Shown here: in pieces, positions 1,701 to 28,811 of the stretch
Layout: each line of letters opens with the position of its first letter
How positions within the stretch are numbered: position 1 is the stretch's first letter
Source: Verrucomicrobiota bacterium
GTDB taxonomy: Bacteria > Verrucomicrobiota > Verrucomicrobiia > Limisphaerales > SXQI01
DNA: 34,711 nucleotides
Reading direction: 5' to 3'
Assembly (NCBI GenBank): GCA_008933045.1
Contig: WBXJ01000004.1
Span: 1 to 34,711 of the forward strand
The notes under the pieces: model-generated
Database searches by the model: none
Told to the model about the DNA's origin: nothing
What the model saw: only the letters and a program-made list of their open reading frames with translations
Program-made: the position numbers and the translations under genes

Positions 1701-4700
1701 ATGAGATTGTTGACGCCTTTTTTTACAACCCGTTTTCTTGGTTTCGTCGCGTTTTCTTGGGTCGGTTGCGCGATGGCGGCGGTCGATTTCACCAAGGATA
1801 TTCAGCCGATCTTTGTCGAGCACTGTTATGCCTGTCATGGCGAGAAGAAGCAGGAGGCGGGGTTCCGATTGGATCGCAAGGAGTCTTTTTTTAAAGGTGG
1901 GGAGTATGGGCCTGCTTTGGTGCTCGGGAAGAGCGCGGAGAGCTTATTGTTTCTGGCGGTCTCAGGTGCGACCGATCAAGTAGCACGGATGCCCAAGAAG
2001 AGTCCTGCGCTTTCCTCGGAAGAAATCGGGTTGCTCAAGGCTTGGATCGACGAAGGGGCACAATGGCCCGATCACGGTGTGGCCCAAGCCAAGTCGGCCA
2101 AGGATCATTGGGCATTCAAAGCTCCGGTCAAACCCGTCCCGCGAGCCGTGAAGGGTCAGAAGTGGGTGCGCGGTGATGTGGATCGATTCATTCTCAGCGA
2201 CTTAGAAAAAGAAGGGTTGAAGCCCTCTCCCGAAACGGATCGAGTCACTTTGCTCAGGCGTGTGTATCTGGACTTGATCGGTCTGCCGCCAACTCTGGAA
2301 CAGACCGATGCGTTTCTCGGGGATAAATCAGCGAATGCCTATCCAAAGGTGGTGGAGCAACTGCTCAAATCGCCGCACTACGGGGAGCGTTGGGCGCGGC
2401 ATTGGTTGGATGCGGCGCGGTATGCGGATTCCGACGGTTTTGAGAAAGATAAGCCTCGGTTCATCTGGGCGTATCGGGATTGGGTGGTCAATGCGCTGAA
2501 TCGGGATTTGCCTTACGACGCGTTCATTACCGAACAACTCGCTGGCGACCTCCTGCCTGGATCGACGGAGGATCAAAAGATCGCGACGGGGTTTTTGCGT
2601 AATTCGATGGTGAACGAGGAGGGCGGTGTGGATCCCGAGCAGTTTCGGACGGATGGTCTTTTCGATCGGATGGATGCTATCGGAAAATCTGTGCTGGGGA
2701 TAACGATTCAGTGCGCCCAGTGTCATACTCATAAGTTCGACCCGATATCGCAGGAGGAATATTATCGGCTCTTTGCTTTCCTGAATAACGATCATGAATC
2801 GAGCCGAGTTTATTATCCGCCGAGCTTGCAACAATCAGTTTCGGATCTCACGCGTCAAATGCGGGATTTAGAGGATGGCCTGCGCCATGTGACTCCGGAT
2901 TGGCAGGAGCGAATGAAGGGTTGGGAGGATTCAGTGAAGCAAGATCAGCCCGACTGGAAAGTGGCGAGAGCCTTTCATCAAGGCGAAAAAGGGGAACGCT
3001 TTTACGATTACGTCGATGGCTCAATTCGAGCCTCGAGTTACGCACCAACCTATTGGACGGCTGAATTCTGGGCGACCAACCATGCGGCAACCGTCGGTGC
3101 ATTCCGATTCGAGCAATTGAACGATCCCAACTTACCCTGCGGCGGCCCCGGCCGTTCGATCAAAGGAATGGCCGCTCTCAGTGAATTCCGTGCGGAGCTG
3201 GAAGACCTTTCCACGACGAATAAAATCAAGGTGAAGTTCGTTAACGCCACCGCCGATTTCTCGAACGCGGAGAAGCCGCTTGAGGCTGAGTTTGATGACA
3301 GGTCAGGAGGTAAGGCGCGGCCGTATGGCCCGATCCAATTTGCTATCGATGGAAAACCGTCAACGGCCTGGGGGATAGATGCCGGGCCGGGCCGTCGGAA
3401 CGTCCCTCGAAAAGCGGTTTTTGCTGCAGAGAAACCGATCACATTCACCAATGATTTTCGGGTGCGCTTCTTCCTCGAACAGAACCATGGAGGTTTTAAC
3501 TCAGACGATAATCAAAATCATAATTTGGGCCGATTTCGGATGAGCCACACCGCAGGTACCAATGCCGTCGCCGACCCGTTGCCGGCAACGGTGCGGGAGA
3601 TCTTAGCGATTGCCCCTGAACGCCGTTCCACCGCGCAGATTGCGGCGGTGTTCAGCTATTGGCGGACGACGGTGCCGAGTTTCAAAGAGACCAATGAGAA
3701 GATTGAAGCTCTTTGGAAAACTTGGCCGGAAGGCACCCCCACCATGACCCTCGCAATGCGGAAGGGCGCAATGCCGGGCGACGAAGCGCGGGCCACTCAT
3801 ATGTTTCGCCGTGGAGATTGGCTCAAACCTGGAAAAGAAGTGGCCTTCGGCACACCCGCATTTTTGCATCCCTTGCCTCCAGATGCAGATGGTTCGCGGT
3901 TGGCATTCGCTCGTTGGTTGACGGATAAGAAATCTCCCACCACGGCCCGCGTCGCGGTCAACCGGACATGGCAGCAACTGTTTGGCACTGGCCTGTTGGA
4001 GACGCCGGAAGATTTTGGAACTCAAAGCCCGCCTCCCTACCATCCGGAGCTGTTGGATTGGTTGGCCTGTCAATTGATGGAGGAGGGATGGAGTATGAAA
4101 TCCTTGCTGCGAACCCTCGTCACCTCAGCGACCTATCGACAGAGCAGTCGAGTCACGCCCGCGCTCTTGGCACGAGACCCTGCCAACCGATTGCTGGCTC
4201 GCGGATCACGGTTCCGTGTTGAAGGTGAAATCGTCCGTGATGTTGCGCTGGCAACCAGCGGCCTTCTCAATCCCGTGCTCGGTGGCCGAGGAGTTTACCC
4301 GCCCGCACCTGAGTTTCTCTTTCTTCCACCCGCCAGCTACGGGCCCAAGGTTTGGACGGAGGAAAAAGGTGCGGATCGTTATCGCCGCAGTCTTTACGTG
4401 TTCAAATTCCGTTCCATTCCGTACCCGGTCTTGATGAATTTTGATGCGCCAAACGGTGATTTTTCCTGCGTCAGACGTGGACGTTCAAACACCCCTCTCC
4501 AAGCATTAACGTCATTGAACGAAACGGTTTTCATGGAATGCGCCCAGCAACTCGCGATGCAAGTATTGACCCACGGTGGCAACACGGATGACGACCGTAT
4601 CACGTATGCCTTCCGGCGAGTTCTCAGTCGTCATCCCACCCCGTTCGAGAGAACCGAGCTCAAATCGTTGCTGCAACGACAGAGTCAACGAATTGCCGAG

Positions 4701-4844
4701 GGTTGGATCAATCCTGCGGAACTGGCCACGGGTAAGAACGAACCCGCAAAACTTCCACCCAACACAAATCCCACGCAACTCGCCGCCTACACCGTGGTGA
4801 GCCGAGCCTTGCTGAATTTGGACGAAGCAATCACCAAGGAGTAA
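1701..4844 (+). CDS. Secreted planctomycete-type cytochrome with DUF1549 and DUF1553 domains
   Basis: A 1047-residue exported protein of the PSCyt1/PSCyt2/PSD1 type. An N-terminal signal peptide (about residues 1-27, ending AMAA) precedes a c-type haem motif CYACH at residues 42-46. DUF1549 follows (about 150-360) with the characteristic [20 protein letters not shown] and a second CxxCH ([14 protein letters not shown], about residues 337-342). A variable middle part of about 270 residues includes a discoidin-like stretch with [16 protein letters not shown]1553 is at about 730-1010 ([32 protein letters not shown]). The biochemical role of these proteins is not established; outward electron transfer or carbohydrate oxidation is inferred from the haem motifs. 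The next gene encodes the usual DUF1501 partner 22 bases downstream. A TATGAT box 14 bases before the start could be a -10 element. Confidence 0.95.
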
Positions 4845-4866
4845 TCTTACCTCGAAAGCGAATTCT

Positions 4867-6303
4867 ATGAATAAGTTTGAGCAACTTCTCCATCAACAAC
4901 GCCAGTTCACGACCCGCCGTTGGTTTTTCAAGGAGTGCGGTGTTGGTTTAGGCGCAATCGCCCTGCGTGGGTTGTTAGGCCAGAACTCGGCTCAGGCGGC
5001 GGCTCCTGCGGGATTGCATCCGCTTGCTCCCAAGAAAAGTCATTTCCCGGGTAAAGCAAAACGGGTCATCTACCTCTTTATGGCCGGTGCTCCGAGCCAT
5101 TTGGAACTCTTCGATTACAAACCACAGCTTGCAAAATTTAATGGGACATTGCCGCCCGAGGAATTGATCAAAGGTTATCGAGCGGCTTTTATCAATCCGA
5201 GTAGCACTCTTCTCGGCCCCAAATTTAAATTCGCGAAACATGGAAAATCGGGTGCTGAACTTTCCGAGGTTCTTCCCTATCTTGCGGAAGTCGCGGACGA
5301 TATTGCGATCGTCCGATCCATGCATACCGATGCGTTTAATCATGCTCCTGCTCAGATCATGATGAACACGGGTTCTCAACAATTTGGCCGCCCCAGCCTC
5401 GGTGCATGGACGACTTACGGGCTGGGTTCGGAAACACAAGATTTACCTTCCTACGTGGTTTTCAGCACCGGCGGCAAGGGAACCAGCGGCGGTGCCTCCA
5501 ACTGGGGTTCAGGATTCCTTCCCGCCTTCCATAACGGCACTCTATTCCGGACCGGTGGCGATCCCGTATTGTATCTTTCTAATCCCAAGGGTGTGGATGA
5601 TCCCATGCAAAAGGACACACTCGATACCATCAACCGTCTGAATTCGAAACGACTCGGAACGATTGGTGACCCCGAAATTGCCGCGCGGATCAATGCCTAC
5701 GAGATGGCTTACCGCATGCAACACGTCGCGCCAGAGGTCATGGATATTTCCAAGGAACCTCAGCATATCCGGGACATGTATGGTGCGGAACCCGGCAAAC
5801 CCACCTTTGCAAACTCCTGCCTTCTCGCTCGGCGTTTGATCGAAAAAGGAGTGCGCTTTGTTCAGATATTCCATGAGTCTTGGGATCAACACGGCAGCCT
5901 GAAAAAAGATTTAAAGCACAATTGTGAGGTTACAGATAAAGCAAGCGCGGCCTTGGTCAAAGACCTCAAGCAACGCGGATTGCTTGAGGATACGATCGTC
6001 ATCTGGGGTGGCGAATTTGGGCGCACCCCCATGGTGCAGGGAGGGGATGATGGGCGAGATCATCACCCGAATTGTTTTTCCATGTGGATGGCGGGCGGAG
6101 GCATCAAGCCAGGCCTAACCTTGGGTGCGTCAGATGATTTTGGATTTAATGCTACCGTGGACAAAGTCCATGTGCATGACCTCCATGCCACCCTTCTTCA
6201 TTTGCTCGGCTTTGATCACACCAAGCTAACGCACCGGTTCCAAGGCCGAGATTTTCGACTGACGGATGTCAGTGGGGAAGTTGTGACAAAACTCCTCGCC
6301 TAA
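4867..6303 (+). CDS. Tat-exported DUF1501 (sulfatase-like fold) protein
   Basis: A 478-residue DUF1501 protein. The N-terminus carries a good twin-arginine motif (TRRWFFKE at about residues 17-24) before a hydrophobic stretch, so export in a folded state is likely. Family hallmarks are visible: [23 protein letters not shown] near residue 65, the D-H-rich [13 protein letters not shown] segment, [29 protein letters not shown], and the metal-site-like [28 protein letters not shown]1501 is distantly related to the alkaline-phosphatase/sulfatase superfamily, but no activity has been assigned. It follows the DUF1549/DUF1553 gene after 22 bases; this pair is a standard planctomycete/verrucomicrobial two-gene unit and the proteins probably work together. 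Confidence 0.94.
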
Positions 6304-6322
6304 ACTTCGGCATCGTGCGGGT

Positions 6323-7195
6323 ATGGAACCAGAATCCAGCAAAAGCCCGCAAGTGCTGACAATCCATGATCAACCGGAAGCACCCTCGGGAATGGCGCCT
6401 TGGACGTGGTCGGAGCTTTTTCCGGACGCGGATTATCGTTTCAATTTTCAATTTAAACGCGGCCTCATTTCGTCGTTTTACCAGCCGAGCGCACGCGGAT
6501 CACTCGCACTCCGCGAGCGCGCACGATTGCTGACCCACCATCGCGCCGATTGTCTCGCCTGGCTTCCTTCGAGCGAGGGAGCTATTGCTGATGCCCATCA
6601 GGTATTTGCCGACCTTGGGCTTGTCCCAAACCCGAATGCTTCCAACCCAACGGAATCGCTGCTCGCCCTTGGACAATCTCTGGAGGCAGATCTAATTCTG
6701 CTCCAGATCACGGAGAACCAGCCCGTGGTCATCGCAGGTGTCGCCTGTTTTCCTACAGGTTGGAGCTTACCCGCTAAACTGGGACGGTCACTCTTGGGAG
6801 TTCACCATGAGGTCCCGGAGTTGAATGAGGAACTCGGATCGAGGATCCATCGGTTCCTCAGTGGTTTGAAACCGGAAACCTCCTGGGAACGGGCTAACTG
6901 GGGACTTGCTGCGACTTCGCAACTCAATCTTAACCCTTCGACATTTTTCCCACGGTTGACCGCCGAGACTCCACTTGAGGAAATTTATGTTCGAGTCGAA
7001 ACGCAATCCTTGACCCTACTTCCGACGAGCGCGGCCATTCTTTTTGGCATCCGAATCCACCTCACCCCATTGCTGAGTCTCTGGAGCCACTCGGAACTTC
7101 GACAACGAATCCAACGCGCTCTGCGAACCCTGCCACCCGCGTTGGCCGATTACAAAGGCCTAACCTCCATCAGGGCAAAGTTGATCGAATACTAA
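6323..7195 (+). CDS. DUF3445 / heme-dependent oxidative N-demethylase-like protein
   Basis: A 290-residue soluble protein, without a signal peptide, that resembles the DUF3445/HDOD family, whose characterised relatives oxidatively remove methyl groups from amines. Supporting features are the N-terminal DYRFNFQFKRG segment, the central CFPTGWSLPAKLGRSLLGVH block followed by VPELNEELGSRIHRFLSGL, the WERANWGL segment, and the C-terminal YVRVETQSLTLLPTSAAILF followed by IRIHLTPL. The order and spacing of these blocks fit the family. The ATG lies 19 bases after the DUF1501 stop, so it is probably co-transcribed with the cytochrome pair, an uncommon partner as far as I know. Identification is from remembered family patterns and has not been checked against a profile; the substrate is unknown. 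Confidence 0.72.
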   Translation: MEPESSKSPQVLTIHDQPEAPSGMAPWTWSELFPDADYRFNFQFKRGLISSFYQPSARGSLALRERARLLTHHRADCLAWLPSSEGAIADAHQVFADLGLVPNPNASNPTESLLALGQSLEADLILLQITENQPVVIAGVACFPTGWSLPAKLGRSLLGVHHEVPELNEELGSRIHRFLSGLKPETSWERANWGLAATSQLNLNPSTFFPRLTAETPLEEIYVRVETQSLTLLPTSAAILFGIRIHLTPLLSLWSHSELRQRIQRALRTLPPALADYKGLTSIRAKLIEY

Positions 7196-10137: not shown

Positions 10138-11487
10138 CTACTTCAACGGAAGGATCCGCATGTTTCTGAAAGCTACGGAACCATGATCACCTTGCAGAAA
10201 GAACGGGCCCGGCTCATTGATATTATCGTCCAACTGACTGCCGGTGGGCTTCGGAACATCCGCATCCGCATGCACCTTCACGCCATTCAGAAACACGGTC
10301 ACCTTCTGACCCCGCATCGTGACTTCCGCATGCTGCCACTCACCCGCTTTGCGAGAAACAAAGAGGGTGGGAGGTGCCGTGTTGTAGATACCACCGTTAC
10401 CGCCCATGGCAGGTTTACCGGAGCTATAGTCGTCATAAATCTGAATCTCATGACGTCCGCGCAGGTAGAAACCGCTGTTTGCACCTTTGGGCACACGATA
10501 TTCGTAACGAACTTTGAAATCGCGGAACTTTTCATCACCCACCAAGTCCGTGCCATGTTGACCCTCCGCCACTGTGTTCACGAGGATCCCATCCTGAACG
10601 CTCCAACTTGGAGTGCCATCCGCCCGGCGCAGATGCCATCCGCTTAAGTTCTGACCGTTGAACATCGATTTCCAGCCCGCAGCCTTTTCCTCCGCGCTCA
10701 GGCCTGACGGAGTGCTCGTTGGGGCACCCCCCGCCGGCACCAAACCCAACGCCCATTGAATGCCTCCGAGAATGTGCTTTTGATAAGCTTCGCTAGTCCA
10801 AACATCTTCGCGGTGCCCAAGCGAGGTGTAGAACAATCGGCCCTTGCCAATGTTTTTGCTCCACGAGATAGGATAATCACCGGGTTGGCCAGTGTTCGGG
10901 TGCTTATCCAGAGTGAGCAGGCCATGAACCTGATCCCGTTGGAAGCTTTTCATGATATAAATCTCGTCATGCACAGAAAACTTCGGGCCTAAATGCGCGG
11001 TTGCGGGGTGATCAGCCTGGTCATTATTGCAATTCACTGTGGCTTGCGCACCGTGAGTCAAAAATTCGCCACCCAACATGTCAATGTAGGGCTTAAAACC
11101 GTGGAAGGTATCGCTGGCCGCGTGCATTCCCACAAAAGCATGCCCCGCCTCCACATAATCAATCAGGGCCTTGGGTTCCGGCAGTGGCAGATCCCCCGTG
11201 GTATTTGCAAAGATTACACCATCATAATTCTTAAGCGATTCAGCCGTCATCTTGGCCTTCACATCCTCGCTCCCCTTCCCATCAGCGCCCCCTCGGACAA
11301 AATCAACCGTCCATAAACCCGTCTGTTCCCCCATGCTTTCCAGCACACGCTCTGCCGTGCCAATCGAGCTGTGACGGAAGCCTTGGGTGGCAGTCACCAC
11401 TAATAATTTTTTTGGAGCGGCCCACGCTGGGACGACCGCAGCCATAGAGAGTGCCAAGACCAGCGCGGCACGGTAGAGAGGTTTCAT
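10138..11487 (-). CDS. Secreted ThuA domain - DUF1080 fusion protein
   Basis: About 449 residues. A signal peptide (MKPLYRAALVLALSMAAVVP ending AWA) is followed by a ThuA/trehalose-utilisation-type domain at about residues 24-245 (KKLLVVTATQGFRHSSIGTA, then YVEAGHAFVGMHAASDTF, FYTSLGHREDVW). A DUF1080 (3-keto-disaccharide hydrolase-like, lectin/glucanase fold) domain fills about 265-449, with WKSMFNGQNLSGWHL, SGFYLRGRHEIQIYDD and GEWQHAEVTMRGQKVTVFLN. Known members of these families act on sugars or oxidised sugars outside the cytoplasm. The ATG at 11487 was chosen because it begins the signal peptide; an upstream ATG (11502) and a GTG (11520) are alternatives, and none has a clear Shine-Dalgarno sequence. 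It ends at a strong terminator. Confidence 0.92.
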   Translation of the reverse strand: MKPLYRAALVLALSMAAVVPAWAAPKKLLVVTATQGFRHSSIGTAERVLESMGEQTGLWTVDFVRGGADGKGSEDVKAKMTAESLKNYDGVIFANTTGDLPLPEPKALIDYVEAGHAFVGMHAASDTFHGFKPYIDMLGGEFLTHGAQATVNCNNDQADHPATAHLGPKFSVHDEIYIMKSFQRDQVHGLLTLDKHPNTGQPGDYPISWSKNIGKGRLFYTSLGHREDVWTSEAYQKHILGGIQWALGLVPAGGAPTSTPSGLSAEEKAAGWKSMFNGQNLSGWHLRRADGTPSWSVQDGILVNTVAEGQHGTDLVGDEKFRDFKVRYEYRVPKGANSGFYLRGRHEIQIYDDYSSGKPAMGGNGGIYNTAPPTLFVSRKAGEWQHAEVTMRGQKVTVFLNGVKVHADADVPKPTGSQLDDNINEPGPFFLQGDHGSVAFRNMRILPLK

Positions 11488-11520
11488 ACAAGTTTTGTTC
11501 ATAATTGGGTTCAGACACAC

Positions 11521-15794: not shown

Positions 15795-18140
15795 ATGAAG
15801 TTCTTGCCGTCGTTCCACATTCGCTTCCTCAGCGCGTTGTTCGCCGCGATCACGCTTAATCCGCGCGCGATGCCCGCTGTTCCTAACGAAACAGCCAAAG
15901 TGTTGAAAAAATACTGTTATGATTGCCATGATCGTGAAGTGCAAAAGGGGTCACTCAATCTGGAGGCTTTGGTGGGAGTGCGCGTTGACGAGAATGGCGA
16001 CGCGTGGGAAAAAGTAATTCGAAAAGTAAATTCACGGCAGATGCCTCCCATTGGCAAGCCGCGTCCGAATGAAAAAACATACCATGAGGTGATCGGGGAA
16101 CTGGCCACGGCACTCGACATAATCGCCGCAAAGAATCCGAACCCAGGCCGCACCGAGACATTTCGCCGGCTGAATCGGACTGAATATCAGAATGCCATCC
16201 GCGATCTGCTTGGAGTAGAAATCGACGCCACGGCACTGCTCCCGAAGGACGAGGCGAGTCATGGTTTTGACAACGTCACGGTCGGAATGCTTTCGCCAAC
16301 CCTTCTGGGCCGCTACATCACCGCCGCTCAAAAGATCAGTCAATTAGCCATCGGCGCGCCGCGCAACAAACCGGGGGGCGACACCTACCGCATTCCTGCG
16401 GACGTAACGCAGGAATCGCACGTTGAGGGGCTACCTTTGGGCACGCGCGGTGGGAAGTTGATTCGCCACACCTTTCCCGTCGATGGCGATTATGATTTTC
16501 AGATTCGACTGGCTCGTGATCGAAACGAAGAAATTGAAGGGTTGAATGGGACGTATAACCTTGAACTGATCCTCGACCAGGATTGCATTCAATCCTTCAC
16601 CGTGGCACCGCCAGTGGTCCCCAACGATTACGAGAGTGTGGATGGAAAACTGAAAATTCGCGCGCCGGTGAAAGCCGGATTTCATGAAGTCGGCGTTACG
16701 TTCGTCCAAAGCTCCGCCGCGTTGCTCGAGCGAAAACGCCAGCCTTACTCGGTGGCCTTTAATATGCACCGGCATCCGCGTTTGAGTCCCGCCATCTACG
16801 AGGTTTCCATCACCGGCCCCTATAACTCAACGGGCTCAGGAGATACGCTGAGCCGCCGGCGGATTTTTGTGGCGAAGCCTTCGCGGGCCTCCGAGGAGGA
16901 ACCGTGCGCGGAGAAAATTCTTTCGTCGCTGATGCGGCGCGCCTTTTGCCGTCCAGTCACGAAAGAAGACATGGATCTGCCGATGAGTTACTTCCGTAAA
17001 GCCAGGGCGCAGGACGGTTTTGAGGCTGGCATTGAGACGGCCTTGAGTTCAATTCTGGTCAGCCCTCACTTTCTTTTCCACATCGAGCAAGATCCGGACG
17101 GGGTTTCGCCGAAGACCGCGTACCGTCTACCTGACCTTCAACTTGCCTCGCGTTTGTCATTTTTCATCTGGAGCAGCATCCCGGACGATGAGTTGCTGGA
17201 TTTAGCGAGCCGGAGCGAACTCAGCAAACCGAAAACACTTGCGAAGCAAGTTAAACGGATGCTCGCAGATCCCCGCGCGCGCAGTCTGGCGACCAATTTC
17301 GCGGACCAATGGCTGTATCTCCGGAACCTCAACTCCCTCTCGCCGGATGCGCGGCTTTTTCCGGATTTCGACGACAACCTGCGTCAGGCCTTCCGGCAGG
17401 AAACAATCCTCTTTTTTGAAAGCATCTTGGAAGGAGATCAAAGCGTCTTGCGACTGCTCAAAAGCGACTACACTTTTCTGAATGATCGGCTGGCGAAGCA
17501 TTATGGCATCACTGGAATTCAGGGCAGCCATTTTCGTAAAGTGGCACTGAAGCCCGACAGCAAACGGGGCGGGTTGCTCCGCCACGGAAGCATTCTTTCC
17601 GTGACCTCATACGCCACGCGCACTTCGCCGGTGATCCGTGGCCACTGGATTCTTGGCAATCTGCTCGGCTCGCCGCCGCCTCCACCGCCGGCGGATGTGC
17701 CCGCGCTTAAAGAAAGGACAATTTCTTCAACGTTGTCGGGTCGCGAACGCTTGGCGCAACACCGAGCCAATCCGGCATGCGCGAGTTGCCACAACCTGAT
17801 GGACCCGGTCGGCTTCTCTTTAGAGAATTTCGATGCGTTGGGCCGTTGGCGGGATTTGGAGGACGGCAAACCAGTAGACGCTTCGGGTGGATTTCCGGAT
17901 GGGAGCCAATTGACGGGAGTCGATGCCCTCGAACAAACGCTTTTGAAACGACCGGACTTATTTGTCGGCACATTCGCCGAGAAACTTCTCACCTTTGCTC
18001 TTGGCCGCGGGATTGAATCGTACGATGGGCCTGCCATTCGCAAAATCGTCAATCAAACCGAAGCTGATGACTTTAGATTTTCGTCCCTGATCATTGCGGT
18101 CGTAAACAGCGTGCCCTTTAAAATGAGGAACTCCCTATGA
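15795..18140 (+). CDS. Secreted DUF1592-series (DUF1587/1595/1592/1588/1585) cytochrome-like protein
   Basis: A 781-residue exported protein with an N-terminal signal peptide (about residues 1-28) and a c-type haem motif CYDCH at residues 41-45. The following domains come in the family's usual order: DUF1587 (FRRLNRTEYQNAIRDLLGVE, about 122-180), a carbohydrate-binding-like region, DUF1595 and DUF1592 (LQLASRLSFFIWSSIPDDEL, about 440-570), DUF1588 (RGGLLRHGSILSVTSYATRT, about 580-680, with a second CxxCH in ACASCHNLMDPVGFSLENFD) and DUF1585 (FAEKLLTFALGRGIESYDGP near the end). The function is not established; a role in periplasmic or surface electron transfer is inferred from two haem sites. 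It overlaps the DUF1552 gene by four bases (ATGA), so the two are translationally coupled. Confidence 0.95.
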   Translation: MKFLPSFHIRFLSALFAAITLNPRAMPAVPNETAKVLKKYCYDCHDREVQKGSLNLEALVGVRVDENGDAWEKVIRKVNSRQMPPIGKPRPNEKTYHEVIGELATALDIIAAKNPNPGRTETFRRLNRTEYQNAIRDLLGVEIDATALLPKDEASHGFDNVTVGMLSPTLLGRYITAAQKISQLAIGAPRNKPGGDTYRIPADVTQESHVEGLPLGTRGGKLIRHTFPVDGDYDFQIRLARDRNEEIEGLNGTYNLELILDQDCIQSFTVAPPVVPNDYESVDGKLKIRAPVKAGFHEVGVTFVQSSAALLERKRQPYSVAFNMHRHPRLSPAIYEVSITGPYNSTGSGDTLSRRRIFVAKPSRASEEEPCAEKILSSLMRRAFCRPVTKEDMDLPMSYFRKARAQDGFEAGIETALSSILVSPHFLFHIEQDPDGVSPKTAYRLPDLQLASRLSFFIWSSIPDDELLDLASRSELSKPKTLAKQVKRMLADPRARSLATNFADQWLYLRNLNSLSPDARLFPDFDDNLRQAFRQETILFFESILEGDQSVLRLLKSDYTFLNDRLAKHYGITGIQGSHFRKVALKPDSKRGGLLRHGSILSVTSYATRTSPVIRGHWILGNLLGSPPPPPPADVPALKERTISSTLSGRERLAQHRANPACASCHNLMDPVGFSLENFDALGRWRDLEDGKPVDASGGFPDGSQLTGVDALEQTLLKRPDLFVGTFAEKLLTFALGRGIESYDGPAIRKIVNQTEADDFRFSSLIIAVVNSVPFKMRNSL

Positions 18141-19477
18141 TTATCACCAAAAAATTCCTGCCCCGAAGGACCTTTCTGAAGTCGGTGGGCGCCACATTGG
18201 CTCTGCCCTTGCTGGACGCGATGATTCCTGCAGCCACGGCACTGGACAAAACGGCGGCTAAACCCATCCGTCGCCTCGGGTTTGTTTTCATGCCGATGGG
18301 ATGCGACCAATCCCGCTGGACACCGCGCAGCGAGGGAACTCTCGATGAACTTTCGCCGATTCTCGACTCGCTCGCGCCGGTCAAGAACCACTTGACTGTG
18401 CTGACGAACATGGAATTGGCCAACGCCTATCCTGGATCCCACGCCACCTCCAATGCTGCTTTCCTCAGCGCCGCCAAAGCGAAGCACACGGAAGGAAGTG
18501 ATTATTATTTGGGCACCACCGTCGACCAAATTGCGGCTCGACAGGTCGGGCTGGCAACGCAGCTTCCTTCCCTAGAAATGTCGATGGATTTAATGCAGAC
18601 CGTTGGCCAATGCGACAACGGTTACGCCTGCGTCTATCAAAATAATCTTTCATGGTCTTCACCCACCACGCCGTTGCCTGCTGAAGCGCATCCTCGAATC
18701 GTATTTGAAAGCCTGTTTGGCGAGGGTGGCAACGCGGCTGAACGTCAGGCGACCCTGCGAAAGCGCGCCAGCCTGCTGGACGGTTTCAACCACGAAATTT
18801 CGCGTCTCAAAAGAAAAGTGGGCCTTGGCGATCGCGCCAAGATCGACCAGTATCTTGAAACGGTGCGCGAGGTGGAACGCAGGATTCAGCGCGCGGAAGC
18901 AGACGCCGCAAACACCGCGTTGCCCGATTTGGATCGGCCCCTGGGGGTGCCGCCGGCGTACGCGGATCATGCGCGGCTCATGTTCGATCTGCAATTGCTT
19001 GCCTTTCAGGGGGATGTCACTCGCGTGATTACCTTCCAACTTGCGCGCGAAACCAGCAATCGGACCTATCCGGAGATTGGCGTCCCAGATCCCCATCATC
19101 CCCTTTCCCATCACGGGAATGACCCCGACAAAATCGCGCGCATGGCCAAGATCAATGCGTTCCACGTCTCTCTTTTCGGGGAGTTTCTACAAAAGCTGAA
19201 AAACACACCGGAAGGAAATGGCTCCCTCCTCGATCACTCCCTCTATCTTTACGGTAGCGGCATTGGCAATCCGAACGTGCACGACCACACCAATCTCCCG
19301 ATTATCTTGGCCGGCGGAGCGGCGGGAGGCATGAAAGGAAATCGGCATATTCGATTTAAAAAGCCAACGCCGCTGGCGAACCTGCATCTGACGTTGCTGG
19401 ACAAAGTGGGGGTGCGGCTCGATTCATTTGCGGATAGCACCGGCAAACTCACCGACCTGTTTCCTCTTTCGATGTGA
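18137..19477 (+). CDS. Tat-exported DUF1552 protein
   Basis: A 446-residue DUF1552 protein, the standard partner of DUF1592-series cytochromes. The N-terminus has a textbook Tat motif (PRRTFLKS at about residues 10-17) and a hydrophobic segment ending near residue 34. Family blocks include LGFVFMPMGCDQSRWTP, the HATSNAAFLSAAK segment, FESLFGEGGNAAERQ, the EVERRIQRAE helix, HARLMFDLQLLAFQGDVTRV, and the C-terminal YLYGSGIGNPNVHDHTNLPI then LAGG. The His/Asp-rich C-terminal part suggests a metal site in an alkaline-phosphatase-like fold, but activity is unknown. Both ends overlap neighbours by four bases, making a coupled three-gene operon. Confidence 0.95.
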   Translation: MIITKKFLPRRTFLKSVGATLALPLLDAMIPAATALDKTAAKPIRRLGFVFMPMGCDQSRWTPRSEGTLDELSPILDSLAPVKNHLTVLTNMELANAYPGSHATSNAAFLSAAKAKHTEGSDYYLGTTVDQIAARQVGLATQLPSLEMSMDLMQTVGQCDNGYACVYQNNLSWSSPTTPLPAEAHPRIVFESLFGEGGNAAERQATLRKRASLLDGFNHEISRLKRKVGLGDRAKIDQYLETVREVERRIQRAEADAANTALPDLDRPLGVPPAYADHARLMFDLQLLAFQGDVTRVITFQLARETSNRTYPEIGVPDPHHPLSHHGNDPDKIARMAKINAFHVSLFGEFLQKLKNTPEGNGSLLDHSLYLYGSGIGNPNVHDHTNLPIILAGGAAGGMKGNRHIRFKKPTPLANLHLTLLDKVGVRLDSFADSTGKLTDLFPLSM

Positions 19478-20880
19478 GACTCGCGCGCATCTTTATTTGC
19501 TTCCTGCTGGCCGGCATTTTGATCCGGGCGGATAATATTTTCACGCCTTTGATCGACGCGGCGCGGAACAACGATCTTGCCCAAGTCAAAGCACTTTTGA
19601 AAGCCGGCGCGGATGCGAACGAGACCAACCGTTATGGAATATCGCCTCTTTTGATGGCCTGCCAAAACGGCAACGCCGAGATAATTAAATCGTTGTTAGC
19701 CGTTGGCGCAGACGCGAACACCCATGCACGGAGTTCCGAAACGGTTTTAATGACCGCTGCTCGCACCGGCAATGCCGAGTGCGTTCGAGCACTCCTTGCC
19801 AAAGGGGCCAACGTGAATGCCAAGGAACGTCGGGGGCAAACGGCGATCATGTGGGCCGCCGCCGAAGGGCACGCCAACGTCGTGAAGTCGTTGCTGGAGG
19901 CTGGCGCCGATTTTCAAACTCCACTCGATGGCGGATTCACCCCCTTCTTGTTTGCCATTCGCGAAGGCCGCGCCAACGTCGTCAAACTTCTTCTCCAAGC
20001 TGGCGTCGATGTAAACGAGCCGATACGGGCCAAACGCAAAGTCGGGCGCGGCCCACAGGCTGGAATGACTCCGTTGCTCATGGCGGTTGAAAATGGCTAC
20101 TTCGAAATGGCGATTGATCTGGTCAAAGCGGGTGCCGATCCGAACGACCAACGCGGCGGTTACACAGCTCTGCACAACATCACTTGGGTTCGCAAACCCA
20201 ACCACGGCGAGGATGAAGACGGCGCGCCGCCGCCCGATGGCTCCGGCAACATCGATTCCCTTGCGTTCGTCCGCAAACTCGTCGCCCTAGGCGCCAACGT
20301 GAACGCGCGCATCGCCAAAGGGCACGGTGGCAAAAATCTCCTCAACACCACCGGCGGCACTCCGTTCCTTCTCGCGTCCAAGACTGCGGACATCGCCCTC
20401 TTGAAATTGCTCTACGACTTGGGGGCCGACCCGACGATCACTAATGTGGATGGCGACACACCGCTGATCGCTGCGGCTGGGTTCGGCACACCGACGGCGG
20501 GTGAAGTCGCCGGCGAGGAGCCAGAAGTGTTGGAAGTTCTCGAATGGCTTTTGACAATTGGCGCCGATATCAACGCCGTCGACAAGCATGGCGAAACGGC
20601 CATGCACGGTGCTGCTTACAAGAATTTGCCCAAAGTCGTCCATTTCCTCGCCAACCACGGCGCGAAGGTCGAAGTATGGAACCAAAAAAACAATTGGGGC
20701 TGGACGCCGCTGTTGATTGCTGAAGGGTTTCGTCCGGGAAACTTCAAGCCTTCCTTCGAAACGATTGCCGCGATTCATCAAGCCATGCTTGCCTGCGGTG
20801 TGACGCCGCCGCCACCCACTAGTGCCAAAGGCGTCAATAACAGTGACTTCGTGCCGCCAGAGAAAAAATCCATCCCCTAA
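19474..20880 (+). CDS. Secreted ankyrin-repeat protein
   Basis: A 468-residue protein starting at GTG in a four-base overlap (GTGA) with the DUF1552 stop. A short signal peptide (ARIFICFLLAGILIRA) precedes about nine to ten ankyrin repeats. Examples are TPLIDAARNNDLAQVKALLK then AGADANETN, SPLLMACQNGNAEIIKSLLA, TAIMWAAAEGHANVVKSLLE and TPLLMAVENGYFEMAIDLVK. Two repeats near residues 225-300 carry insertions rich in Gly, Pro and Asp. The last part (WNQKNNWGWTPLLIAEGF) is a degenerate capping repeat followed by a Pro-rich tail. Ankyrin repeats bind proteins, so it may act as a periplasmic scaffold or chaperone for the cytochrome/DUF1552 pair. That is inference from the coupled operon. A relic of its 3' end lies at about 15550-15775. 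Confidence 0.94.
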   Translation: MRLARIFICFLLAGILIRADNIFTPLIDAARNNDLAQVKALLKAGADANETNRYGISPLLMACQNGNAEIIKSLLAVGADANTHARSSETVLMTAARTGNAECVRALLAKGANVNAKERRGQTAIMWAAAEGHANVVKSLLEAGADFQTPLDGGFTPFLFAIREGRANVVKLLLQAGVDVNEPIRAKRKVGRGPQAGMTPLLMAVENGYFEMAIDLVKAGADPNDQRGGYTALHNITWVRKPNHGEDEDGAPPPDGSGNIDSLAFVRKLVALGANVNARIAKGHGGKNLLNTTGGTPFLLASKTADIALLKLLYDLGADPTITNVDGDTPLIAAAGFGTPTAGEVAGEEPEVLEVLEWLLTIGADINAVDKHGETAMHGAAYKNLPKVVHFLANHGAKVEVWNQKNNWGWTPLLIAEGFRPGNFKPSFETIAAIHQAMLACGVTPPPPTSAKGVNNSDFVPPEKKSIP

Positions 20881-23655: not shown

Positions 23656-26600
23656 TTATTTCACCTTGCCCGATACGTAATCGTGCATGTTTTTGAGGAG
23701 AGTCTGGTAAGCCTTGTGGTTGTGCGCTGACGCATCGTGACCCAAGCTCATGCAGGCGATTTTTGCTTTCGGGTGAGTGGTCACCCAAACCACGGGCCAA
23801 GTTTCTCCCGCCGCGTTTCGACCCGTGGCGAGCACGGTGATTTTGGCATTCTTGGAACCCCCTTCGTAATGATAGAGTTCATCCGAAAGCTTAAATGTTT
23901 TAGGCACACCCGCCATGATAGGATGATCCGGTTGGACCACCGTCACTTCAAATTCGCCGTATTTGTCGTGTCCTCGCGCCCCTCCGCCCACCAACCCCGC
24001 GTTGTAACTCGGCCAATTGTTCCAACTATACCAAAGTGCCGCATGAACCAGCATCAACCCCTTGCCGGCATCAGCAAACGCGAAGATTCCGTCCCGCGTC
24101 GCCGCATCGGGAAACGGCTTGTTGTTGGAGAGATAAAGCACGTCCAAATCTTTGAGCACCGCGCCCACTTGATCAGTTGCTTCGGTATAATTCGCAGCGA
24201 TGCCCCCAGCCTTCAGCGTTGCGGAATCTACTTCGTTAAACCATTTATTAAAATCATGGCTGCTATTACCACCCACGATCAATGTGCGAGCCGTCACCGA
24301 CAACGCCGCAGGTGCCGCGTCCGCTTTCTGTACCGCTTGATCCCCATTATCGGCAGTAATCGCGACAAATGTCGGCGCGACGAAATTGCTAAAACTCTCC
24401 AGTGTGATCGTTTTTATCGCAGCCTCGCGCTTTAACACTTTCGTGAACCAACGTACCTGGCCCGATTTAACAATGTCCTCCACTCTCTTCGACCCCGGCA
24501 CGTCAAACTCCCCAATGTAATCAGCGAATTCCACGCCGTTCGTGAGTATGATCACCTCGCTCTGACCGTCACCATAGTTCACAGTTACTTTTGCGACCGG
24601 AAGGTTCTCGTGACGATCAGTGCCGCAGCAAGGAAACGCCCAACCGCCAACACCACCCAAGAAATGGAGACGTTTGGCTTTTACCCCATGCCCATCGATC
24701 TCCACCTTTTCCGGAAACGTACGAGCCAATCCTTCGCCACCTTTCAGAACCACCACATTATTTCCATTAGCGGTTTTAGCAGGATTAGCCACTTCGAATG
24801 GAACGCCGCCGGCCTTCATCAAACCGAAACGCTTGAACTGGACGCTCTCACTCGCAGACTCCGACGAAACATAAATCCCACGAGTCGAATTTGCAGTGAA
24901 GGCCTGTCCGAGATCGAGCACACGGAATCGTGAATCTCCTTCGGTCAAATAGGTGAGGATGTCCCGAAGACCAGCAGCCTCCAATGCTTCAAAGCCATCC
25001 GGCATTAACGACCGTCCTGTGTTACGACGATTCTTGATCTTTGCCGTCTTCAACTCCAGATCACCCACAGCCGTGCGGATGAACACGCTTTCCCGATTCT
25101 CGCGCCCCACAATTCCGTCGTAAGTTTCCCCATCGAGAGTATCGAAACTCCACGACAAATAATTGGGTTCCACCACACGATTCGGATCAATGATATGCAC
25201 CAACAATTCTGCCGCACCATGCACGCCCATGCCGGTAAGGTCCGGTGCTAGATCACGTCCATCGCCATTGAATTTGTGGCAAGCTGCGCAATTCTGTGTG
25301 AATAATTCTTTACCTCGCGCACTGTTCCCCGGCTTCTCAACCTCGGGCGTCAGTAGCGCGATCAGCGCATTTTTCTCCTTCATCTCCGGCCCTCGCAAAT
25401 CGTTGATCACCGCAATTGCGCGTTCTGAAACTCCCCTGTTTGCATGGGTCCGAAGCCGTCCAATCGAAACAGGATTCAAGAGCGACAAGGCAATCTTTTT
25501 AGAAGCCAGTGCCTCGACTAAACCTAACGACCACTCGGCCCGTTTGATAAGTTGAGCGAACGCTGCCTCCTGAGCACTTGCAGGTAGTTGCGAAAAAACC
25601 CTGGTAATCGCCGCACCGGCTGCGGGATCGCCACTGTTACCGAGCGCATCAATCACCCGACGTTGTAAATCGGCTGAAGCATTCGAGCCCGCAATGTTGG
25701 CGACTGCTGGCATGATCTTGGCGTTAACCTGACGCACAGCTAGCAGACTAGTAGCCAACTGAGCACGCTGATCATCCGACTGGCTGGCATCATTCACTTG
25801 CGTGATCATTTGCTCCACCAATGTTGCAGTCTGAGCAGCCATCTTGCCGTCCTTATCCCAACGCGAGATCAAGGGCAAGGTAGCAGTAGGGACAGCGGGA
25901 TCCTTCGACGCGAGCAACGCCGCCAATGCTTCCTGAAGCTCGCTAGACCAAGTGGGCACAACGCTGGGTTTCAGGTTCGCGCTCAGGCTTTCTAACGCCA
26001 CAACCTTCAGTGCCTCACCGCCACTCTGCCGAGCCAACGCCACCACAAGCGCACCAGCCTTGCTACTATCCTCAGACGAAGCAATCACGCGGCTCAGTTC
26101 CACTACCGGAATTCGCAGGTAATCGCCCCCAACTTCCATTGCCGTTCGAAGGAATTGCACCGGTGCTTTTTTGTAATAAGCCACCATCGCCGATTGGGAC
26201 CAACTATCCTTGAGGAACTCAAATGTTTCTAACAGATACTTGCGTGCTCCGGCACTTTCATCGGTCTCATACCAACGAGTTTCGCTCATCGCAAACGTCA
26301 TCAATATCTCCAGCCGAGTCCGCTCGTCTGCCGTCCGGATCGCTTCGCCCATACCCATGAGCAACGGCCCCCATGCCTGAAAGTCTTGGCTCAAATCCGC
26401 AGGCAACGCCGTGTGACGCAACATCTGCATTGCGGTACGTTGCAACACAGGGCTGCCGGATTTCCAGAGTGCCGTCAGCATCTCCGAATTCTGGGCCCGA
26501 GCGATCCCCAACGCCGTCCACGCCGCATTCACTCGCGTCAATGTGGAAGCATCACTGCTCAATGCCAATGCCTGAACCGCAGCGACGGTCTCCACCTTAC

Positions 26601-28692
26601 CTTGTTCGATCAGTAGACGCTGCGCGTTCATGCGCACCGTGCCATTAGCGTGGTTCAGGGCTTGCACCAATTCAGCCGACGAAGCTTTGGTGAGATTCGG
26701 AATCACCAACTTCTTGGCATCCTTGTGCTGCACTCGCCAAACACGACCAAAGTAATGGTCGCGATCCGGTCGCACCGCCGCGTTGTTCGGGCCGTGTTTC
26801 GGGCCGCGCGTATCATTGTGGATCGCGGCTTGGTTGTAGAAATCTAAAATGTAGAGTGCTCCATCAGGTCCAATTCGCGTGTGAATCGGCCGGAACCACA
26901 GATCCGTGCTCGCCACAATCTCCGAGTCAGGATACTCACCCGGTCGCGACGCGGTGAACGTGGGGCCCTTGGCCTTGAGCATATCCAAATGCACCAGATT
27001 CAACGTCGGTTCGGTAACCGTGAACGTGTAGTCCCACTTCGCCGGCCAGGCTCCCCCGTTGTAAATACAAGCTCCCGCCGCTGCCGTCCAATTGCCCACC
27101 CAATCGATCTGCACATAAGCCTGCTGATGATACTCTCGTGCAGGAAACGCTTTGTTATGATCCTCGATGTTTTTAAAACTGGTTGCGTTCCCGACCTTCG
27201 CCCGCGTTAAGACCCCTTCCGGCATCACAACGTGGTCAATATGATTCCCGTTGGCTTGAGAGTAAAAAACCTCCCCATCAGGCGCAATATCGACCCCCCA
27301 AGTATTACTTCCCTTCGAAGAGTATTGCTCAATCCCACTTCCATCAGGTCTAAACCGAAACACCCCGTCGTTGATCTTCCCAAAATACTTCGAACCATCA
27401 CCCGATTTGATATCCCCACGGCTATACCCCACCGTCGCATAAATCCATCCATCCATCCCCCATCGCAAATTGCTAATCACCGCATGCGTATCGAACGTGC
27501 CAAAACCCGTATATACCTTCTCGACAGTCTCCGCCTTTCCATCCCCGTTCGTATCCCGCACAAAAAGCACATCCGGCGCCTGAGACACAATCACACCATC
27601 CTTGTAAAACACAAAACTAGTGGCCAACTCCAAGCCCTCATAAAAAACCGTCTTTTTATCCATCACTCCATCCCCCGTCGTGTCTTCCAAAATAGAGATG
27701 CGATCCTTTGCCGGGCGGTTCTTATCGGTCTTCGCGGGATACTCCACTGCTTCCAAAACCCACATCCGACCCGCAGGATCCCAATCCACCGACATCGGCT
27801 TTTGAACCAATGGCTCCGCGGCTGCCAATGAAGTCGTAAACTCCGACCACGTTTTAATTTGCGCCAACGTCGCCTCAGGACGTGAGGGCCCACCCTCCGG
27901 ATAACGAAAACTCTCCAACTCAACCTTCGAACAAAGCGAATTCATCTCCCGTTTACCCGCCCACGCAATCCCTCGCAGCAACATCCCGCGAAAATGCGGC
28001 AACCCGAATGACTTCGTATTATGCCCGGGAATCGAAACAAACGCTCGGTAGTTATCCTTCTCGTAAACCCACATCTGCGGAACAATCTCATACACCGAAG
28101 GCATAATCCGCCCCCCTTTACTATTGCGCTTATCCGGCGCATACGACGCACACAACACCTTCGCCTCAGGCATCATTCGTAGATCATAGTAAATCTCATC
28201 ATCAAAATCCCAATTCGATACCCCCTCCGTCAGCTCATGCTTATAATCCGTGAAATACATCGAAACATCCCCCTCGAACCACTTCGAGAACCCATGCTCC
28301 CACGCTCCCCCAATCACCGTCTTCCACCACTGAGGATCCGTGCCACACACCGAATCATGGATCGCCACCAACCCACCCCCGCGTTTCAAAAACTTCTCCA
28401 AATTCGCCCGATCCTCACCCGCCACCGTACCTGCCTCCGCCGCATACATCACCACCACATCCGTATTCTCCAATTGCGTCCCCGATGGAAAACCCACCTT
28501 CCCATCCACCTTGGCACCGCGCTCGGTCAACAACTTCGTCCAATCCTTCAAAAAGACCGGCCCGTCATGCTGCCCGGCGCCATGCGTTTTCTCTCCCGCC
28601 CGGATAAACACCCGCAGTGGACCCGCGTTTTGCCCCTGCACAGGAGCCATCGCCACAAGAAACGCCAAAAGAAGAAGCAATCGAAATTTCAT
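23656..28692 (-). CDS. Giant secreted ThuA - dehydrogenase-like propeller - HEAT - cytochrome - ThuA protein
   Basis: About 1678 residues, with a signal peptide (MKFRLLLLLAFLVAMAPVQG). Domains in order: a first ThuA-like domain (about 25-245; GQHDGPVFLKDWTKLL, KRGGGLVAIHDS, FRGMLLRGIAWAG); a PVC-type membrane-bound dehydrogenase beta-propeller (about 290-655; KPMSVDWDPAGRMWVLEAVE, NLRWGMDGWIYATVGYS, RIGPDGALYILDFYNQ); HEAT-like helical repeats (about 660-1105); a haem domain with NCAACHKFNGDGRDLAPDLT (C1135, C1138, H1139) and its usual IIDPNRVVEPNYLSW tail; a carbohydrate-binding-like beta region (about 1250-1450); and a second ThuA domain (about 1467-1678; AGKGLMLVHAALWYSWNNWP, MSLGHDASAHNHKAYQTLL). 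The order from propeller to haem is common in Planctomycetes and Verrucomicrobia; ThuA at both ends is less usual. An ATG at 28701 is an alternative start. Periplasmic sugar oxidation is inferred. Confidence 0.93.
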   Translation of the reverse strand: MKFRLLLLLAFLVAMAPVQGQNAGPLRVFIRAGEKTHGAGQHDGPVFLKDWTKLLTERGAKVDGKVGFPSGTQLENTDVVVMYAAEAGTVAGEDRANLEKFLKRGGGLVAIHDSVCGTDPQWWKTVIGGAWEHGFSKWFEGDVSMYFTDYKHELTEGVSNWDFDDEIYYDLRMMPEAKVLCASYAPDKRNSKGGRIMPSVYEIVPQMWVYEKDNYRAFVSIPGHNTKSFGLPHFRGMLLRGIAWAGKREMNSLCSKVELESFRYPEGGPSRPEATLAQIKTWSEFTTSLAAAEPLVQKPMSVDWDPAGRMWVLEAVEYPAKTDKNRPAKDRISILEDTTGDGVMDKKTVFYEGLELATSFVFYKDGVIVSQAPDVLFVRDTNGDGKAETVEKVYTGFGTFDTHAVISNLRWGMDGWIYATVGYSRGDIKSGDGSKYFGKINDGVFRFRPDGSGIEQYSSKGSNTWGVDIAPDGEVFYSQANGNHIDHVVMPEGVLTRAKVGNATSFKNIEDHNKAFPAREYHQQAYVQIDWVGNWTAAAGACIYNGGAWPAKWDYTFTVTEPTLNLVHLDMLKAKGPTFTASRPGEYPDSEIVASTDLWFRPIHTRIGPDGALYILDFYNQAAIHNDTRGPKHGPNNAAVRPDRDHYFGRVWRVQHKDAKKLVIPNLTKASSAELVQALNHANGTVRMNAQRLLIEQGKVETVAAVQALALSSDASTLTRVNAAWTALGIARAQNSEMLTALWKSGSPVLQRTAMQMLRHTALPADLSQDFQAWGPLLMGMGEAIRTADERTRLEILMTFAMSETRWYETDESAGARKYLLETFEFLKDSWSQSAMVAYYKKAPVQFLRTAMEVGGDYLRIPVVELSRVIASSEDSSKAGALVVALARQSGGEALKVVALESLSANLKPSVVPTWSSELQEALAALLASKDPAVPTATLPLISRWDKDGKMAAQTATLVEQMITQVNDASQSDDQRAQLATSLLAVRQVNAKIMPAVANIAGSNASADLQRRVIDALGNSGDPAAGAAITRVFSQLPASAQEAAFAQLIKRAEWSLGLVEALASKKIALSLLNPVSIGRLRTHANRGVSERAIAVINDLRGPEMKEKNALIALLTPEVEKPGNSARGKELFTQNCAACHKFNGDGRDLAPDLTGMGVHGAAELLVHIIDPNRVVEPNYLSWSFDTLDGETYDGIVGRENRESVFIRTAVGDLELKTAKIKNRRNTGRSLMPDGFEALEAAGLRDILTYLTEGDSRFRVLDLGQAFTANSTRGIYVSSESASESVQFKRFGLMKAGGVPFEVANPAKTANGNNVVVLKGGEGLARTFPEKVEIDGHGVKAKRLHFLGGVGGWAFPCCGTDRHENLPVAKVTVNYGDGQSEVIILTNGVEFADYIGEFDVPGSKRVEDIVKSGQVRWFTKVLKREAAIKTITLESFSNFVAPTFVAITADNGDQAVQKADAAPAALSVTARTLIVGGNSSHDFNKWFNEVDSATLKAGGIAANYTEATDQVGAVLKDLDVLYLSNNKPFPDAATRDGIFAFADAGKGLMLVHAALWYSWNNWPSYNAGLVGGGARGHDKYGEFEVTVVQPDHPIMAGVPKTFKLSDELYHYEGGSKNAKITVLATGRNAAGETWPVVWVTTHPKAKIACMSLGHDASAHNHKAYQTLLKNMHDYVSGKVK

Positions 28693-28811
28693 ACGATACA
28701 TATTTGTTAACGCCAAAACCCTAATCAACCCAACGGAAGGAAGCAACGTTTCAGTCACGCAAGACTGAACGGCGAGATGAAGCACTTAACCCGAGAAGGA
28801 GTCGAACGAGA

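Follow-up and report, generated by a model that had tools for sequence, protein, structure and literature searches.

One exported chain with a ThuA domain at each end

What can be the role of a single bacterial protein that joins a beta-propeller and a cytochrome to a ThuA domain at either end? The question is raised by a gene in a 34,711-nucleotide stretch of Verrucomicrobiota DNA (the whole of which is called the window here). On the minus strand, the frame at 23656-28785 is uninterrupted and comprises 1709 codons when counted from a GTG; the corresponding protein, P0001, provides the residue numbers used throughout. An ATG, codon 31 of P0001, lies at 28692, and a typical Sec signal peptide begins there (MKFRLLLLLAFLVAMAPVQG): read directly, it consists of Lys/Arg, a hydrophobic stretch and APVQG, without a lipobox. 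The sequence makes this ATG the likely start of the gene, with the signal peptide directly after it and a chain of ~1,680 residues. The order of domains is signal peptide, ThuA1, TIGR02604/DUF7133 propeller, HEAT repeats, TIGR02603 mono-haem domain, beta-rich domain and ThuA2 (Table 1).

Table 1. Features of the double-ThuA gene and of a second ThuA gene in the window (residues as in P0001).
Feature	Residues	Position	Strand	Evidence
Complete gene, double-ThuA PVC-type haem protein		23656..28692	-	single open frame; relatives align from residues 13-53 onward
Alternative upstream GTG start		28785	-	open frame
Predicted Sec-type signal peptide	~31-51	28630..28692	-	sequence read directly
ThuA1 domain	54-278	27949..28623	-	Pfam PF06283; iterated HMM; fold match 4jqs, 4pxy, 4e5v
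Beta-propeller, DUF7133/TIGR02604	302-688	26719..27879	-	profiles; fold matches 1cq1, 2ism, 3a9g
HEAT-repeat region, least conserved part	703 to ~1140	25363..26676	-	HEAT_2 weak; conservation
TIGR02603 mono-haem cytochrome c domain	1152-1280	24943..25329	-	NCBIfam; profile match 7zs0
CxxCH haem attachment motif CAACH	1165-1169	25276..25290	-	alignment
Met1260, predicted distal haem ligand	1260	25003..25005	-	invariant; aligns with Met292 of Kustd1711
Middle beta-rich domain, no recognised family	~1285-1480	24343..24930	-	confident AlphaFold strands
ThuA2 domain	1496-1706	23665..24297	-	Pfam PF06283; fold match 4e5v, 4jqs, 1t0b; separate gene in L009, L028, L042
Exported ThuA + 3keto-disac_hyd (PF06439) fusion, conserved in genus		10138-11520	-	Pfam

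The presence of ThuA at both ends, proposed in an earlier note on this DNA, was borne out by domain search, fold and signature residues. Pfam places ThuA on two stretches (1.9e-48 for the whole protein, gathering cut-off passed). When PF06283 was scored per domain over the genome (cut-off 33.4 bits), ThuA1 reached 92.8 bits at 27958-28491 and ThuA2 86.6 bits at 23689-24219, and the C-terminal region matched ThuA in 21/21 aligned sequences. Two AlphaFold models were built from alignments of 21 sequences and compared with the PDB: A2, residues 52-700 (pLDDT 84.5, pTM 0.84), and A1, residues 1145-1708 (pLDDT 85.5, pTM 0.50). For both chain ends, the first PDB matches of these models were solved ThuA-like proteins (4e5v, 4jqs and 1t0b); a PDB sequence search with ThuA1 alone gave no match, whereas profile and fold searches did. 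Given the pTM of A1, the model does not fix how haem, middle domain and ThuA2 are placed relative to each other. Moreover, both domains look intact in their signature residues, as read from an alignment with 59 other ThuA sequences (ThuA1/ThuA2: His143/1581, GG159-160/1600-1601, DExY196-199/1635-1638, Pro236/1664 and GH254-255/1682-1683).

Between the two ends, the propeller-HEAT-haem core is indeed the known PVC arrangement that had been recognised in it, since both TIGR02604 (251.7 bits at 315-687, cut-off 122.2) and TIGR02603 (92.5 bits, cut-off 68.15) exceed their NCBIfam cut-offs. Pfam assigns the propeller to DUF7133 at 3.4e-122 and also matches Cytochrom_C. HEAT_2 was weak at 703-788, below the cut-off in this protein and above it in the relative L040. 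Each of 41 aligned sequences holds exactly one CxxCH. The haem domain matches the structure of Kustd1711 (7zs0) both by profile (8.6e-18) and by fold; the haems of Kustd1711 are His/Met ligated, with potentials near +350 mV and Met292 as distal ligand (PMC11791136).

The region between the haem and ThuA2 is, according to the model, a real folded domain. It had been described as carbohydrate-binding-like, a description for which we found no support: 21 members were searched with Pfam, CBM families included, and none had a match, and the PDB matches, CBM35 and xylanase modules, superimpose at rmsd 10-19 A, with no clean match among them. It should be noted that this domain is missing from the relative L055, in which both ThuA domains are kept; it is, from L055, dispensable.

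The propeller and the favoured function

No other part of the protein is as conserved as the propeller, in which 114 of 391 positions are nearly invariant. His433 and Asn493 are invariant and, as placed by eye, occupy the positions at which PQQ sugar dehydrogenases have a His and an Asn. The residue next to this Asn, position 492, is the by-eye counterpart of the arginine of their RN motif, and it is C, S or G in 21/21 sequences. When the propeller and a GSDH protein were compared by profile, no usable alignment resulted, so the equivalence of the PQQ site rests on motifs read by eye. PQQ synthesis was judged by pqqC, which is absent in the source genome and in 45/47 carriers of the double-ThuA gene tested. 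No known cofactor is thereby left for the propeller, which is unlikely to be an ordinary PQQ enzyme.

The explanation that we favour, tentatively, is that of a haem redox protein which resides in the periplasm and serves carbohydrate catabolism of the 3-keto-sugar type. It would work without self-made PQQ, and the sugar would be the target of the paired ThuA domains. The absence of self-made PQQ in this explanation follows from the missing pqqC and from the arginine that, by eye, is replaced. Here, the propeller would bind a sugar-like substrate, the His/Met haem would pass electrons at high potential to the respiratory chain, HEAT repeats and beta-rich domain would serve as scaffold, and ThuA1 and ThuA2 would jointly act on this substrate, either as it is or once oxidised.

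The same two observations, replacement (by eye) of the RN arginine and lack of pqqC in most carriers, also suit another explanation: the propeller-HEAT-haem part may be a non-catalytic scaffold for electron transfer and docking, with the ThuA pair as the sole enzyme, or itself a binding module, and no sugar oxidation in the chain. A natural protein that has both ThuA domains without the core (described below) fits this as well. Against it speak the strong conservation of the propeller and the invariant His and Asn at sugar-dehydrogenase places, which suggest a functional site, and we consider a scaffold somewhat less likely than the favoured explanation.

A pair of ThuA domains of common origin

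A profile-profile comparison aligned ThuA1 with ThuA2 over 203 columns at 98% probability, with only 19% identity. ThuA1 has PGH in place of LGH and a conserved first strand of its own, and ThuA2 is distinguished by an invariant Trp/Asn set. In a FastTree phylogeny of 136 ThuA domains, a limited sample placed in one alignment (SH-like supports), the ThuA1 clade (0.995) includes the C-terminal ThuA of L063, the ThuA2 clade (0.921) includes split-off ThuA2 genes, and the two clades are sisters (0.997). This topology points to an old duplication, earlier than the spread across two phyla, and so to a common origin of the two domains. Tree and low identity agree with the earlier note that the domains are divergent and not the product of a simple recent duplication. 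The ThuA at 10138-11520, included in the same tree as had been suggested, falls far from both, in a separate clade of stand-alone and DUF1080-fused ThuA domains.

Several relatives are natural dissections of the chain. In L009, L028 and L042, the core frame ends once the middle domain is complete, and ThuA2 is encoded further on by an adjoining gene in a different frame, which has a signal or lipoprotein peptide of its own; G301 has a ThuA2-like gene on a different contig. Conversely, G011 encodes a 513-residue exported protein made of ThuA1 and ThuA2 only (L118:876-2417, plus strand), beside a sulfatase-like frame. This protein probably derives from the double-ThuA family by loss of the core, given that L014 has a ThuA2 with 80% identity to the one here. 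Exported ThuA2 genes beside the core, together with the core-less protein, indicate that the domains belong together, and ThuA1 and ThuA2 look like a functional pair. These dissections, in which ThuA2 is split off or the core or the middle domain is lost, allow a direct test of which part does what.

Could the two domains instead be unrelated, each acquired at its own end for a function of its own, and fused only for co-export? Their low identity and the existence of ThuA2 as a separate gene would allow it, as would the attachment of ThuA at either end of such cores in other proteins of the source genome. Three further propeller-haem proteins with one ThuA each are encoded there, on contigs 65, 11 and 154: L062 has it at the N end, along with an F5/8 domain, L063 at the C end, and L064 has it N-terminally, preceded by an isochorismatase domain. 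Nevertheless, the sister clades, and the joint retention of both domains by most relatives and by the core-less protein, make unrelated acquisitions improbable.

Tandem-ThuA proteins of ~480-500 residues were also found at L119:548-2053 (plus strand) and L120:1271-2710 (minus strand). Their domains fall outside the ThuA1 and ThuA2 clades and, by this placement, represent a second, independent double-ThuA architecture.

A bolder reading, which we regard as a long shot, sees in ThuA1 and ThuA2 the two moieties of a single duplicated enzyme, an intramolecular heterodimer arranged round a haem-wired propeller, which would carry out PQQ-independent periplasmic glycoside oxidation and keto-sugar cleavage, with electrons delivered directly to its own cytochrome. 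If true, it would be a self-contained PVC machine in which a glycoside is oxidised, the keto-sugar is cleaved and the protein's own cytochrome is the direct electron acceptor.

A possible link to keto-sugars and the case for PQQ

Proteins with DUF1080 hydrolyse 3-keto-glycosides or are candidates for this activity (PMC9007349), and the other ThuA of the window is fused to such a domain; on these grounds the double-ThuA protein may be tied to 3-keto sugars by association. In plasmids, ThuA genes adjoin Gfo/Idh oxidoreductases. In the literature searched, we found no biochemical function for any PVC-type propeller-haem protein or exported ThuA.

Elsewhere in the window, genes for a PSCyt1-PSCyt2-PSD1 protein, a DUF1501 protein and a haem-dependent oxidative N-demethylase-like (HODM_asu-like) protein stand in a row at 1701-7195 (plus strand). 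At 15795-20880 (plus strand), the frames of a PSD/PSCyt3 protein, an HXXSHH (DUF1552) protein and an ankyrin-repeat protein overlap or abut, and these three genes are likely one operon.

The earlier note had gone further, proposing that one chain could bind a glycan, oxidise it, pass the electrons to haem and process the oxidised sugar. This is supported only in part: glycan binding found no family match, and oxidation by PQQ is at odds with the distribution of pqqC. Processing of the oxidised sugar by ThuA would follow only from the presumed roles of ThuA and 3-keto-disaccharide enzymes elsewhere. In the form of a PQQ-dependent sugar dehydrogenase running on scavenged PQQ, with ThuA domains that process its product in the same chain, this reading draws on the fold of the propeller, whose best matches are the PQQ sugar dehydrogenases 1cq1, 2ism and 3a9g (Foldseek E ~1e-10, prob 1.00, TMt 0.5-0.6). 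The TM-scores are modest, though, and the rmsd high, and the GSDH comparison and the RN site argue in the same direction. A pqqC does occur in two of the carriers, namely G023 and the L027 genome (one of them, a bin with 7% contamination, has a stop in the gene), yet the gene is missing in all the other carriers tested and present in two non-carriers, G012 and G014. Overall, we judge a PQQ enzyme to be very doubtful, and the double-ThuA family argues against assuming that such PVC propellers are PQQ enzymes.

Distribution of the architecture

A scan of one genome per species revealed 41 loci encoding relatives, most of them full length and 42-86% identical. Near full-length relatives occur in more than 30 loci, in Verrucomicrobiota and some Planctomycetota (L035, L037, L040 and L045); the L027 relative comes from a MAG labelled Deltaproteobacteria. 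The gene was present in 29/57 related genomes, nearly all of the same taxonomic order (counting rows of ~45% identity or more), and the long frame in 14/288 other genomes of the phylum Verrucomicrobiota and 8/246 in the phylum of L040. The plasmid collection contained no full-length relative.

Gene neighbours are shared only within the genus or within a freshwater clade. Clustering of the neighbourhoods turned up no partner conserved outside the genus, so that gene context points to no substrate. At L031:5728-7641 (plus strand), MbnP fused to a MauG-type di-haem peroxidase lies directly downstream of the double-ThuA gene, and the same MbnP-MauG cluster occurs in L029, L030, L034, L036 and L048, all of the freshwater clade. 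A protein of ~410 residues (cluster C7) lies near the gene in four loci (L027, L037, L039 and L040).

That separate genes were joined by an assembly error or a frameshift, for which one could cite the relatives with a separate ThuA2 gene, is refuted: assemblies made independently in two phyla, some of them single-contig genomes (e.g. G309), show the same fusion in one frame, and the probability of an artefact is negligible.

Double-ThuA architectures that are both common and already described would have spoken against the earlier note, and of these two points only the first holds: the architecture is widespread in Verrucomicrobiota, but no published description of a double-ThuA haem architecture was found in a literature search for ThuA with haem or PVC terms; PMC5615132 covers PSCyt proteins, a different set of PVC cytochromes. 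The protein represents a real, conserved and apparently undescribed family, not an oddity of one genome. PVC bacteria hold many giant propeller-haem proteins of unassigned function, and this family joins their core to two ThuA domains, a domain family linked with keto-sugar metabolism, in one conserved chain.

Comparison with known systems

The double-ThuA protein brings known domains together in a new way. PVC-type haem-binding CxxCH proteins (TIGR02604 with TIGR02603) have the same order of propeller, HEAT repeats and single haem; they differ by lacking the two ThuA domains and the extra beta domain found here, and many members have ~1,000 residues against ~1,700. In Kustd1711, the dihaem cytochrome c of Kuenenia, the haem domain aligns nearly end to end with ours, including the distal Met, but that protein has two haems with bound calcium and is without propeller or ThuA. 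Soluble quinoprotein glucose/aldose sugar dehydrogenases (1cq1, 2ism) have the propeller fold in common, whereas in our family the arginine of the RN motif is replaced, as judged by eye, and the carriers are mostly without pqqC. The window protein at 10138-11520 also carries a ThuA and is exported, but it has no haem, and its ThuA belongs to the stand-alone/DUF1080-fused clade. Finally, the fold and signature residues of the ThuA family (PF06283; 1t0b, 4e5v, 4jqs) are common to both terminal domains; the solved ThuA-like proteins are single-domain, whereas the present chain joins a cytochrome to two copies that have diverged.
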